From NCBI GenBank assembly GCA_944323045.1, contig CALUQX010000005.1:36884-100883 (forward strand): 64,000 bases of DNA. The letters run 5' to 3'. The notes beneath the pieces were generated by a model that saw only the letters and a list, made by a program, of their open reading frames with translations, was not told where the DNA came from and ran no database searches. Origin of the DNA: Candidatus Gastranaerophilales bacterium. Its GTDB lineage: Bacteria; Cyanobacteriota; Vampirovibrionia; Gastranaerophilales; Gastranaerophilaceae. The translations under genes were made by a program, and so were the position numbers. Below, piece after piece: positions 2,895 through 64,000 of the stretch. The stretch's first letter is position 1; each line of letters begins with the position of its first letter.

Positions 2895-2996
2895 ACGTAG
2901 TTGTAGGGTGCCGTCGTTTCGCCCTCTGCTCGCAATCCGCAAGTGCGCGATGACATGGAAACATCAGGCAACATGGAATATCACATTGACTCATAA

Positions 2997-3121
2997 AAGG
3001 CACTAAGTTACTAAGGCACTAAGGGGCTAAGTATTTACTAAAAATAAGGCAACGCTCTATTCTTGCATTGCCTTATTCTTGTAATTCCTTAGTGCCTTAG
3101 CATCCTAGTGCCTTAGTGCCT
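2997..3121. repeat. Long imperfect palindrome after pilin 1
   Basis: The left arm 2997-3024 is made of AAGGCACTAAG units, and the right arm 3087-3121 of CCTTAGTGCC units. Nested inside is a perfect 10-bp stem, AATAAGGCAA at 3043-3052 with TTGCCTTATT at 3068-3077. It abuts the stop-codon hairpin of the pilin gene. It could act as a terminator or as a mobile repeat; the sequence does not decide. Confidence 0.65.
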
Positions 3122-3148
3122 CCAGTAAGAGGCAGAGCCTCTTACTGG
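3122..3148 (-). promoter_or_regulatory. Perfect hairpin spanning the pilin 1 stop codon
   Basis: Arms 3122-3132 and 3138-3148 form 11 perfect pairs (CCAGTAAGAGG) around a 5-nt loop, CAGAG. The stop codon at 3142-3144 lies inside one arm. The hairpin begins 14 nt after the end of the hypervariable region. A related hairpin sits at the same distance in pilin 2. In the Bordetella phage DGR a hairpin just past the variable repeat promotes retrohoming; a similar role here is inferred. Confidence 0.7.
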
Positions 3149-4290
3149 TCAACACAAACCGCCAGCCTGTCGCTGCTGAAGTCGCGGCTGCCGATGTACC
3201 TGCGCGTGTTGGTAGAGCCGAAGTATCGGTTGTACGCGTCGTGGCTGCTGTACTCCTGCCCAGACCAAACATAGAAGTAATAAGAACTTGGGGAGGCTGA
3301 GAGGAATTGAGAGGCTTTCTCTGTGTCCATTGCTAAGCTGCTGGTTATTCCGCTTGAACTTACGCTATCTGTGTTGTAGATATAATTTGCGAGTTGGGTT
3401 AGCTGGTCTTGGCTTGGCATTTTGCTTACGCCACCACATTTTGCCACCGCGCCTGCCCAGTAGTCATTGTCATAATTACATGCGGCTATTCCTAAGTCTC
3501 CCTTTTGTTCTTCACATTGTGCTTTGGTTAATGGTCCATAGCCGCCATTCTGTGGTCCTAGTATCTGGCTTATGCACATCGTATCTTTTAATTCAGGTAT
3601 CATGCAGGCAACCACGCCTTTTAATTCCCTGACGTTTATTGCGCTAATATCCGAATTTGGTTCTGCACTGTATTTATTCGGGTTCTTATTACCGGAGACA
3701 TCATATAATATCGCCATACTGTTACTTGTTGCGCTAAACTGATTGTTAAAAGGGTCTTGGGTTGTATTCGGATTGTAGGCAATTACTGCATTTACGCCAT
3801 TCGCAAATTGCACTGCCACCGTATCAGTCTCCCAATCCAGACCAAAAGCTGATGCGTCTGTTACTTTTGACATGTCTACCGGCTCTTCATCAGCACTCCA
3901 AATAACTTCCTTGTTAAAGCATTTTGTAATGTTGTTATTGTCGCATACTCTTGTTATTTTTATGTACTTCTTAAGTTCGTTCACAAAGTCCATGGTGTTT
4001 GAGTAGCCTGCTAGTTTTTCTTCTGTGTTCATTTGTCTTGTCGCAACTTCTAGACGTTTTGTGAACACGTCCTGTGCAGTTGACCATGCCTTTTCGTTGT
4101 AATTCTTTACTAGGCTTGGTATTGTTATCGCCGCCACCACGCCGATGATGGCAAGGGTGATTAGCACTTCCGCGAGGGTAAACGCGGCTTTTGGAAAAGT
4201 GACTAAGTGAGTGAAGTGAGTACGGTGAGTACCGTTGTTTCTGGAATTGGTCTGAGCCATGGCTTCGTTGATTTTGTTTTTGTTTTTCAT
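3142..4290 (-). CDS. Type IV pilin-like protein with DGR-like variable C-terminus (pilin 1)
   Basis: 382 residues. After a 36-residue leader comes the prepilin motif FTLAEVLITLAIIGVVAA (residues 37-54), with Ala at -1 rather than Gly. The middle is a secreted pilin-like domain with paired Cys (CDNNNITKC, CEEQKGDLGIAAC). The end, FYVWSGQ followed by a region rich in Y/S/R/D/N and closing LAVCVDQ, resembles C-type-lectin-like DGR target domains. The start is supported by AAGGAG ~10 nt upstream. The gene is paralogous to 42482-43543 over its whole length; the constant parts differ mainly at silent positions. It is divergent from the XRE gene at 4486. The protein should be exported and displayed on the cell surface. 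Pilin identity is firm; the variable-protein role is inferred. Confidence 0.85.
   Translation of the reverse strand: MKNKNKINEAMAQTNSRNNGTHRTHFTHLVTFPKAAFTLAEVLITLAIIGVVAAITIPSLVKNYNEKAWSTAQDVFTKRLEVATRQMNTEEKLAGYSNTMDFVNELKKYIKITRVCDNNNITKCFNKEVIWSADEEPVDMSKVTDASAFGLDWETDTVAVQFANGVNAVIAYNPNTTQDPFNNQFSATSNSMAILYDVSGNKNPNKYSAEPNSDISAINVRELKGVVACMIPELKDTMCISQILGPQNGGYGPLTKAQCEEQKGDLGIAACNYDNDYWAGAVAKCGGVSKMPSQDQLTQLANYIYNTDSVSSSGITSSLAMDTEKASQFLSASPSSYYFYVWSGQEYSSHDAYNRYFGSTNTRRYIGSRDFSSDRLAVCVDQ
3163..3288 (-). other. Putative DGR variable region of pilin 1
   Basis: 126 nt near the 3' end of the gene. Of the 31 codons after the conserved FYVWSGQ, 23 end in C although the genome prefers A/T. 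Twenty-two differ from pilin 2 at position 1 or 2, and only seven at position 3. Length is identical in both genes. This fits mutation of adenines in AAC template codons. The constant GCGGTTTGT stretch follows, where an initiation-of-homing site would be expected. Confidence 0.65.
4195..4240 (+). repeat. Dispersed-repeat sequence inside the pilin 1 leader
   Basis: The plus strand reads GTGACTAAGTGAGTGAAGTG and then ACGGTGAGTACCG, matching the GTGA-TTAAGTGA style of the intergenic repeats. On the coding strand it supplies the Thr/His-rich part of the leader (THRTHFTHLVTF). Pilin 2 lacks this insert and has an 8-residue leader. Confidence 0.6.
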
Positions 4291-41711: not shown

Positions 41712-41854
41712 ATGTATTTCTAGGGCGCAGAAAAGTAGTGTGCCGTCGTTTGACGTACCTGTCCTCTGTGACCGGTGAACGGTGACCAGTTGTTTTGAAA
41801 AAGACGTTAGGACGATAAGACGTTAAGACGCTAGGACGATAAGTTCGTATCATG

Positions 41855-42300: not shown

Positions 42301-42380
42301 TCATATTATTTGACCCCTCACCAAGTTATGACTAAACTCGCTATCGCTCGTTAAGTCAAACTATCCTCTCCCGCAAGGGG
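42301..42380 (-). repeat. Dispersed module, inverted partner of 2817-2894
   Basis: Reverse-complement copy of 2817-2894 with about five mismatches. It ends in the hairpin CTCTCCCGCAAGGGGAGAG (stem with GCAA loop). Confidence 0.8.
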
Positions 42381-42461
42381 AGAGGAAAATTAACCGGCAC
42401 AGAGAACTGGTGCGTCGAAACGACGGCACCATACTTCTGATTTTGAAATGAACTTAATGCT

Positions 42462-42488
42462 CCAGTAAGAGGCTCTGTCTCTTAATGG
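42462..42488 (-). promoter_or_regulatory. Hairpin spanning the pilin 2 stop codon
   Basis: CCAGTAAGAG (42462-42471) pairs with CTCTTAATGG (42479-42488) with one mismatch and a 7-nt loop. Position relative to stop codon and variable region is the same as in pilin 1. Confidence 0.65.
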
Positions 42489-43543
42489 TCAAGACAAACC
42501 GCTAGTAAGTAGCTGTTGGCGCGACCGTAGTAGTTGTTCAAGTACGTGGAGCTAGAGTTGAAACAGCGACCGTACGCGCCGAAACTGTAGAACCTCTGCC
42601 CAGACCAAACATAGAATCGCTCTGAATATGGTGAGGCTGAGAGGAATTGACTCGCTTTCGTTGTGTCTAGGCTTATGCTTGATACATTCTGTTGGGCGCC
42701 TATTGTACTACCATAGTTGTATAAATATGTTGCTAATTCACCTAGCTGTGCCATTGTTGGCATGTTGTTTATTCCTCCGCAGGCTTTCACTGCGCCTGCC
42801 CAATAATCATCTCCATCATTACATGAGCCTATTCCTAAGTCTCCCTTTTGAGCCTCGCATTCTGCCTTTGTTAATGGTCCATAGCCGCCATTCTCTGTTC
42901 CCAATATCTGCGTTATACAAAAGCCTAGTTCTTCTTCAGGTAACAAGCATCCTGTTGCTCCAGCAAGTTGTTTTACATTTGCGTTATGTGCGATGTCTTT
43001 GCCATTGGTATTTGGATTTTTATTGCCGGAAACATCATACAAAATAGCCATGCTTGCGGCAGTTGCTGCAAATGTATTATTAAAGGGTTCCTGAGTGGTA
43101 TTTGGATTATATGCAATAATTGCGTTTACTCCGTTTGCAAATTGTACTGCGACTGTATCTGTGTCCCAGTCATCCTGACCTAAGCTTGCGGCGTTCTTAA
43201 TTGTGGACATATCAATTGGATCTTCGCCTTCATTCCATATCACTTCCTTGTTAAAGCACTTTGTAATATTATTGTTATCACATACGCGAGTGATTTTTAT
43301 ATACTTCTTAAGTTCGTTCACAAAGTCCATTGTACTAGAGTAGCCAGCAAGCTTTTCTTCTGTGTTCATCTGGCGGGTTGCGACTTCTAATCTTTTCGTG
43401 AACACATCCTGCGCGGTTGACCATGCCTCCTCGTTGTAATTATTCACTAAGCTTGGTATCGTTATAGCCGCTACCACGCCGATGATGGCGAGGGTGATGA
43501 GCACTTCGGCGAGGGTAAAAGCATTGAAAAATTTTTTAATCAT
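42482..43543 (-). CDS. Type IV pilin-like protein with DGR-like variable C-terminus (pilin 2)
   Basis: 353 residues. The leader MIKKFFNA precedes FTLAEVLITLAIIGVVAA. The body aligns with pilin 1, including CDNNNITKCFNKEVIW, DTDTVAVQFANGVNA, YDVSGNKNPN and GGYGPLTKAECEAQKGDLG. The end is FYVWSGQ, a variable stretch and LAVCLDH. I chose the ATG at 43543: AGGAGGTG lies 6 nt before it, and the open frame's upstream GTG overlaps that site. The mid-region shows indels against pilin 1 but the variable region has none. It is divergent from the XRE gene at 43644, and the repeat block 41712-42481 is downstream. Presumably exported and surface-displayed. Confidence 0.85.
   Translation of the reverse strand: MIKKFFNAFTLAEVLITLAIIGVVAAITIPSLVNNYNEEAWSTAQDVFTKRLEVATRQMNTEEKLAGYSSTMDFVNELKKYIKITRVCDNNNITKCFNKEVIWNEGEDPIDMSTIKNAASLGQDDWDTDTVAVQFANGVNAIIAYNPNTTQEPFNNTFAATAASMAILYDVSGNKNPNTNGKDIAHNANVKQLAGATGCLLPEEELGFCITQILGTENGGYGPLTKAECEAQKGDLGIGSCNDGDDYWAGAVKACGGINNMPTMAQLGELATYLYNYGSTIGAQQNVSSISLDTTKASQFLSASPYSERFYVWSGQRFYSFGAYGRCFNSSSTYLNNYYGRANSYLLAVCLDH
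42503..42628 (-). other. Putative DGR variable region of pilin 2
   Basis: 126 nt, the same length as in pilin 1. Of the 31 codons after FYVWSGQ, 20 end in C (TAC, AAC, AGC, TTC, GGC, CGC and others). The 21 nt coding for FYVWSGQ before it are identical in both genes. The following GCGGTTTGT is constant. This looks like diversified copies of AAC-rich template codons. Confidence 0.65.
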
Positions 43544-63829: not shown

Positions 63830-64000
63830 GGGGGGGGCGGACAAGTCCACTTTTACACATTGAGCGCAGTGACCGGTGAACGGTGAACAGTGAACGGTTG
63901 TTACAAAAGTGATTAAGTGACTGGGTGATTAAGTGATTAAGCGGGTTACATGAATCAGCCAACGCCACCATGTCATCGCGCAGCGGCATAGTCGCAATTC
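63830..64000. repeat. Dispersed repeat block, cut by window end
   Basis: Begins with an eight-G run (63830-63837), then GGACAAGTCCACTTTT (inverted relative to 26451), GTGACCGGTGAACGGTGAAC, GTTACAAAAGTGATTAAGTG and GCGGGTTACATGAATCAGCC, closely matching 2600-2800 but without the ~105-nt insert found there. It continues with CATGTCATCGCGCA, inverted relative to 2946 and 42257, and runs out of the window. Confidence 0.8.

Follow-up and report, generated by a model that had tools for sequence, protein, structure and literature searches.

The question raised by this locus is why two pilin genes carried by the same window (the whole stretch of 64,000 nucleotides of Candidatus Gastranaerophilales DNA that was analysed) differ from each other in one manner along their bodies and in another along their last codons. 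The first-pass annotation had proposed that both genes are targets of a diversity-generating retroelement (DGR) acting in trans. The features of the window that bear on this proposal are the following:

3142..4290, minus strand: pilin 1, type IV-pilin-like, 382 aa, with an N-methylation prepilin motif at residues 34-56 and matches to PF07963 and TIGR02532 above cut-off
3145..3588, minus strand: predicted C-type-lectin-like domain of pilin 1, residues 235-382, which contains the variable region
3154..3276, minus strand: variable region of pilin 1, 41 codons (123 nt), from FYVWSGQ to LAVC, with boundaries set by comparison with the template of the related genome G017 (locus L166)
3154..3162, minus strand: 3' end of the pilin 1 variable region, GCGGTTTGT, common to the variable regions, with GCGGTTTGC as its counterpart in the template
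3122..3148, no strand assigned: perfect inverted repeat over the pilin 1 stop codon, with a 12-bp stem and a 3-nt loop
42482..43552, minus strand: pilin 2, type IV-pilin-like, 356 aa, a GTG-start ORF with an ATG three codons downstream
42494..42616, minus strand: variable region of pilin 2, 41 codons (123 nt), with boundaries set in the same comparison with the G017 template
42494..42502, minus strand: 3' end of the pilin 2 variable region, GCGGTTTGT
42462..42488, no strand assigned: imperfect inverted repeat over the pilin 2 stop codon, with a longest perfect stem of 6 bp

The two pilins of the window

Over the 31 codons that follow FYVWSGQ, 22 codons differ between the two tails at position 1 or 2 and 7 at position 3, while 23 codons of the pilin 1 tail and 20 of the pilin 2 tail end in C; these figures had been given by the first-pass annotation and were recounted exactly. 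Upstream of the tail, C-ending codons number 89 out of 327 in pilin 1 and 70 out of 301 in pilin 2. When the differences are broken down by codon position, the tails show 16, 19 and 7 at positions 1, 2 and 3 (31 codons) vs. 63, 50 and 141 for the bodies (289 aligned codons; Fisher p = 3e-6), the dominance of third positions in the latter being in agreement with the earlier remark that the bodies differ mainly at silent sites. As for the coordinates first proposed, the tails do lie there, and the variable regions as now delimited are a few bases off.

PF07963 was found above cut-off in proteins P0001 and P0002 and in all 70 members of family A1. Judging from their sequences, these pilins bear the type IV prepilin cleavage and methylation motif, and they could act as a minor pilin or a pseudopilin. 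Concerning the C-terminus, for which the first-pass annotation had suggested a lectin-like nature, the best match of the predicted pilin 1 domain is a C-type-lectin-like fold, with modest scores, and the model of the full pilin 1 is poor (mean pLDDT of 58.5).

Several repeats were observed in the spacers. Each pilin is followed on its 3' side by a copy of an 89-bp repeat (2806-2894 and 42301-42389), the two copies being inverted and 94% identical. The stretch 2780-2900 matches 21 of the 50 fetched pilin loci of the window's genome, and this repeat may be linked to the spread of the pilin genes. The spacers 3' of both pilins also hold runs of repeats spaced by 8 nt, either AAGGCACT-like or AAGACGTT-like, at positions 2997-3028, 3053-3116 and 41801-41843. 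In addition, the spacer of pilin 1 (2599-2645 and 2759-2802) has two repeats, of 47 and 44 bp, in common with the far end of the window (63876-63967), at 98% identity. An Rfam search of the window gave no match at the gathering threshold, and no promoter was found by the scan of positions 2900-3300.

The pilin family in the genome and its relatives

The window's genome, hereafter G000, is an assembly of 1.98 Mb in 44 contigs, given as 97% complete. Pilin 1 used as a query gave 57 matches at E<=1e-25, partial matches included. The DNA motif that opens the variable region was found at 27 places in G000 (with up to 3 mismatches) and a pattern for the core of this region at 23, vs. none for the reversed motif or the control pattern. 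The tail pattern thus exceeds chance, as it recurs in paralogues across the genome and the reversed control patterns have no match there.

Thirty-one variable regions were counted among 51 fetched G000 loci, the scan being confined to these loci, and 26 of them retain at least 85% of the invariant skeleton. Since this skeleton was derived from 16 of the regions later scored, such percentages are partly circular, unlike the test against the G017 template described below. Pilin 1 retains 83 of the 85 skeleton positions and is a good DGR target; pilin 2, with 75 out of 85, is a worn one. No internal stop was found among the best 39 full-length pilin matches. As a whole, about thirty pilin-like genes with variable tails are dispersed through G000, two of them in the window, so that the action of a DGR would have to be in trans.

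The relatives carrying these pilins, where named, are Candidatus Gastranaerophilales genomes, and the variable-region pattern was found in 12 of the 191 genomes of a sample drawn from a larger group.

A DGR cassette in related genomes

In G017, a genome of the same genus as G000, the cassette locus (L166) displays, in this order, a pilin with a variable tail at the contig start, an Avd gene, a template repeat and a reverse transcriptase (RT) gene. The template repeat reads TAC AGC CAG AAC AAC GCG TAC AAC CGC AAC TTC AAC CCT ACC AAC ACG AAC TGG AAC AAC AAC AAC CGC AAC AAC AGC AAC AAA CTC GCG GTT TGC; it is rich in AAC and has GCGGTTTGC at its 3' end. The Avd protein scores 62 bits with the Pfam bAvd model, above the cut-off of 40, and 64 bits with the NCBIfam DivGenRetAVD model, below the cut-off of 80. 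The RT matches RVT_1 above cut-off, and its closest solved sequence is 8ub7 (E 1e-40, the next being at 4e-7), which we take to be the BPP-1 reverse transcriptase. A DGR-type RT, template and variable repeats differing at adenines, and Avd are all present together, and on this gene content G017 holds a complete DGR cassette adjoining a pilin. The first-pass annotation had predicted a template with AAC codons, ending in GCGGTTTGC and accompanied by Avd and RT, and such a template does exist in this genome of the same genus. One RT of DGR type and one template stand there vs. 23 variable regions.

The order in G038 is pilin, Avd, template, RT and again pilin. An RT similar to that of G017 at E<=1e-40 was detected in 25 of the 191 sampled genomes. 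In the same lineage, P0006, which shares 79% identity with the RT of G017, is carried by contigs no longer than 2,458 bases. In G080 (L143 996-1623, on G080:C19, and L164 3050-4168, on G080:C9), Avd and a template were observed together, with no RT in the fetched stretch; the sole G017-like RT lies on a different contig and a second Avd-like gene at G080:C12:9508-9858, an arrangement that amounts to a split DGR.

A viral home of the cassette was also considered and is unsupported, the 21-nt core of the template being without an exact match in viral_contigs. Twelve viral loci hold a relative of the RT, their best segment being 36-67% identical.

Change at template adenines

The 18 G017 regions of template length, out of 23, were compared with their own template. 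Adenine cells were changed in 339 cases out of 684 and all other cells in 15 out of 882 (C 9/576, G 4/180, T 2/126), so that the changes are concentrated on template adenines. At template AAC codons, the final C is kept in 246 of 252 cells, with Tyr (21%), Gly (16%), Asp (15%) and Ser (13%) as the most frequent residues. For the BPP-1 enzyme in E. coli, AAC mutations are described as giving mostly Tyr, Ser and Asp (PMC12875486). A block of the pilin body, aligned for 9 sequences of 42 frames, displayed no excess change at A columns.

Not all adenines are equally affected. Within codons 8-36 of the G017 template, lone adenines were changed in 10 of 126 cells vs. 329 of 558 for those in adenine runs, and the lone adenine of codon 1 in 6 of 18. 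ACC is reported to be strongly mutated by the BPP-1 enzyme (PMC12875486). The sparing of lone adenines could be explained by selection on fold residues or by another context bias. Codon 35 of the template (L166) is AAA and could give rise to stops; none was seen in 48 sequences, template included, where base frequencies predict 1.8, numbers that are too few for a conclusion.

The G017 template, which is independent of the G000 sequences, was then applied to other genomes. For the 16 G000 regions used, mean variability reaches 0.449 at the adenine columns of this template vs. 0.117 elsewhere (p = 9e-10), and for 13 regions of G053 it is 0.413 vs. 0.122 (p = 1e-9). These regions are those of template length among 34 rows in G000 and 24 in G053; 18 G000 rows were dropped for their differing length, and one of the 34 (L047) is no variable region. 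The variable columns of G000 therefore correspond to template adenines when read on the template of G017, G000 offering none of its own.

Other main departures of G000 from the G017 template are common to most regions: CAG is replaced by AGC, CCT by TCT and TGC by TGT. As for G125, 15 of its 16 regions (L264-L279) share one skeleton, unlike that of G017 and G000, with CGG, ACT ACC and GGC AGT GAC, and this skeleton points to a second template type in the genus. Since a private skeleton across many genes of one genome is expected if these were copied from a private template, the G000 departures suggest that this line had its own template after its split from G017.

Hairpins past the variable regions

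Besides the inverted repeats of the window, perfect stems of at least 8 bp were found within 60 nt past the variable region in 27 of the 34 G000 rows, where shuffles give an expectation of 0.12. Such stems are present in 11 of 24 rows in G053, 10 of 24 in G017 and 14 of 16 in G125; the other 14 rows of G017, among which the template itself is counted, have no perfect 8-bp stem within 60 nt. Past the G017 template, the longest stem is 4 bp. Target recognition in BPP-1 depends on such a hairpin, whose stem acts through structure, not sequence (PMC3240598). The common 3' end GCGGTTTGT, with GCGGTTTGC in the template, would be a site similar to the initiation of homing.

Origin of the variable regions

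The explanation that we favour, with a probability of roughly 0.88, is that a DGR produced the variable regions of these pilins, most likely through mutagenic retrohoming from a template of the G017 kind. On the model of BPP-1, copying of the template RNA would place random bases at its adenines, after which the cDNA would be substituted for the corresponding end of a target gene; the common 3' end and the hairpin over the stop codon would allow this target to be recognised. Many pilin genes would depend in trans on a single cassette, as the single RT and single template of G017 vs. its 23 regions lead us to infer, and the variable residues, placed in the predicted lectin-like C-terminal domain, would yield surface proteins with differing binding faces. 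As for G000, its cassette would be either unassembled or lost. Several observations count against this explanation: the machinery missing from G000 and the near-identical copy of pilin 2, both treated below, the pairs with similar bodies and similar tails and the tails common to different species, the G017 rows without a perfect 8-bp stem, the sparing of lone adenines, and the 18 G000 rows that the column test could not include.

A bolder version of this explanation holds that a single cassette is a genome-wide repertoire generator, rewriting two to three dozen dispersed type IV-pilin binding tips in trans, while species-private templates homogenise the target skeletons, the whole amounting to an antibody-like combinatorial pilus repertoire in an uncultured gut bacterium; we regard it as being as open to failure as to confirmation.

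Machinery and possible activity in G000

No match to RVT_1 or to the RT of G017 was found in the G000 assembly, nor any match to the G017 template pattern with up to 3 mismatches, and Avd is represented by one marginal match (28% identity over 46 residues, E 0.004). A complete DGR, in the sense of RT plus template, is thus not found in this 97%-complete assembly. The genome search for RT, Avd and template that the first-pass annotation had recommended therefore turned out, at the level of the assembly, in the manner it had itself counted against its proposal. G053 and G125 likewise have no G017-like RT, no match to the G017 template pattern and no convincing Avd; G053 has one RVT_1 match, in a stretch where the RT of G017 gives a match at E 0.24. 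These template searches used the G017 pattern, from which the G125 skeleton differs, and AAC throughout was found at none of the 16 places listed for G125. The genes that neighbour the RT in G017 are found in the same order in G000, with another gene at the place of the RT.

Simple incompleteness is unlikely to account for the three absences, in assemblies that are 97-99% complete. Either contigs bearing the cassette drop out because it sits among pilin genes, as it does in G038, or the cassette is frequently lost, as in Treponema denticola.

The alternative that best withstands these data differs from the favoured explanation on present activity alone: a DGR made the regions, and RT, Avd and template later disappeared from the G000 line, whose pilins are now subject to drift, duplication and recombination. 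We place it slightly below even odds. It would account for RT and template being absent, and Avd being unconvincing, in G000, G053 and G125, and it has a parallel in T. denticola, in which isolates without RT and TR retain leftover targets (PMC4891356). It is also consistent with protein P0244, which is 99% identical to pilin 2. The two proteins differ at two places in the body and at a single one, by Asn to Asp, in the variable region, so that the region of pilin 2 is not in fast turnover, a point against the first-pass annotation. Against such a loss, the pilin frames of G000 are intact, as seen from the best 39 full-length matches, 26 of 31 regions retain the skeleton to at least 85% (a partly circular figure), and the G038 cassette lies between two pilins, where assemblies may break. 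All things considered, the chances that the window's genome has a complete DGR at work today are about even. Of the initial proposal that both pilins are targets of a DGR in trans, what stands is that the tails are of DGR type and the targets dispersed; a DGR acting in G000 now is not supported.

Tail exchange and selection as possible alternatives

It is very improbable that most of the diversity stems from exchanges between pilin paralogues, by gene conversion or tail swapping and with no reverse transcription involved, even if such exchanges have apparent examples. The tail of P0215 consists of the first half of that of P0211 and the second half of that of P0209, on bodies that are 98-99.7% identical, and results from either recombination or an assembly chimera. 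P0125 matches pilin 1 exactly at residues 79-344 and carries a different tail, one that does not follow the G000 skeleton; retrohoming accounts for it no better than tail exchange or a contig chimera would. These examples are metagenome proteins, for which chimeric assembly is possible, and swapping leaves unexplained why change relative to one template should be restricted to adenines, with the 15 changed cells out of 882 at the other bases of G017.

Twenty-eight protein pairs, not independent of one another, have bodies that agree at 95% or more; their tails are at least 95% identical in 14 pairs, at most 70% identical in 11 and between these values in 3. Some tails are common to different species on DNA that is about 97-99% identical. 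One pilin of G000 (L037 1482-2559) and one of G053 (L211 2963-4040) agree at 99.2% over 1,078 bp, variable region included, while in both genomes the protein of a housekeeping neighbour is about 16-19% different from that of G017; this identity reflects either a mis-binned contig or a recent transfer.

Non-synonymous variation inside the predicted lectin-like domain is what ordinary point mutation under positive selection for the binding face would give, but this reading explains neither the retention of C at third positions (246 of 252 cells), nor changes found only where a separate non-coding copy has A, nor RT, Avd and a template copy adjoining a pilin, and in its plain form it is ruled out by the adenine-only change of G017 against a separate template.

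Relation to known DGRs

The mechanism is that of known DGRs; what is unusual is the type IV-pilin-like nature of the targets and their number. With the system of BPP-1 (mtd, avd, brt), that of G017 shares Avd, an AAC-rich template, the RT and adenine-restricted change, as well as a hairpin past the variable region and none past the template. It differs in that the BPP-1 target is a phage tail protein whereas many dispersed chromosomal targets are found here, and in the hairpin loops, which have 4 nt of the form GRNA in BPP-1 and often 3 nt here.

The T. denticola DGR (TvpA family) is also cellular, with several targets distant from the cassette, but these number two to seven per isolate and some are predicted lipoproteins, vs. 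23-31 pilin-like regions per genome here (PMC4891356). Remote targets with C-type-lectin domains are likewise described for Thiohalocapsa PB-PSB1 and for cyanobacteria (PMC10907252, PMC7517822), although the former has 15 targets from nine loci, which are conflict-system sensors (PMC10907252), and the latter 90 targets for 58 DGRs, often kinases (PMC7517822). Bacteroides DGRs offer the case of a DGR-varied pilus adhesin in gut bacteria, with type V tip pilins that follow another assembly pathway, whereas the present proteins are of the prepilin-methylation, type IV-like kind (PMC12632263).

As for target numbers, separate target genes are most numerous, within the literature consulted, in T. 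denticola, with seven (PMC4891356), and in Thiohalocapsa, with 15 from nine loci (PMC10907252); a 2012 survey reports up to four targets per cassette, with some distant ones besides (PMC3521204). According to Yan et al., the VR copies of some single TRs number a dozen or even hundreds, and they cite a gene in which 91 TR-VR pairs were merged to 21 VRs. Since hundreds of VR copies are thus on record for some templates, no record is claimed here for target number (PMC6642488). Roux et al. state that their own approach would miss remote targets (PMC8144416). In the literature searched, preprints excluded, no paper was found joining diversity-generating retroelement with Melainabacteria, or retroelement with Gastranaerophilales.

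Implications for Ca. Gastranaerophilales

An active system here would mean that one DGR has an unusually high number of separate target genes, and it would be a direct instance of type IV-like pili varied by a DGR. The dispersed pilin targets are an example of what surveys limited to the proximity of the RT omit. The finding opens to testing the question of which partners Ca. Gastranaerophilales bind in the gut, and that of how dozens of sites could be served by one RNA template. The likely outcome for this bacterium is a set of surface proteins able to keep altering their binding partners.
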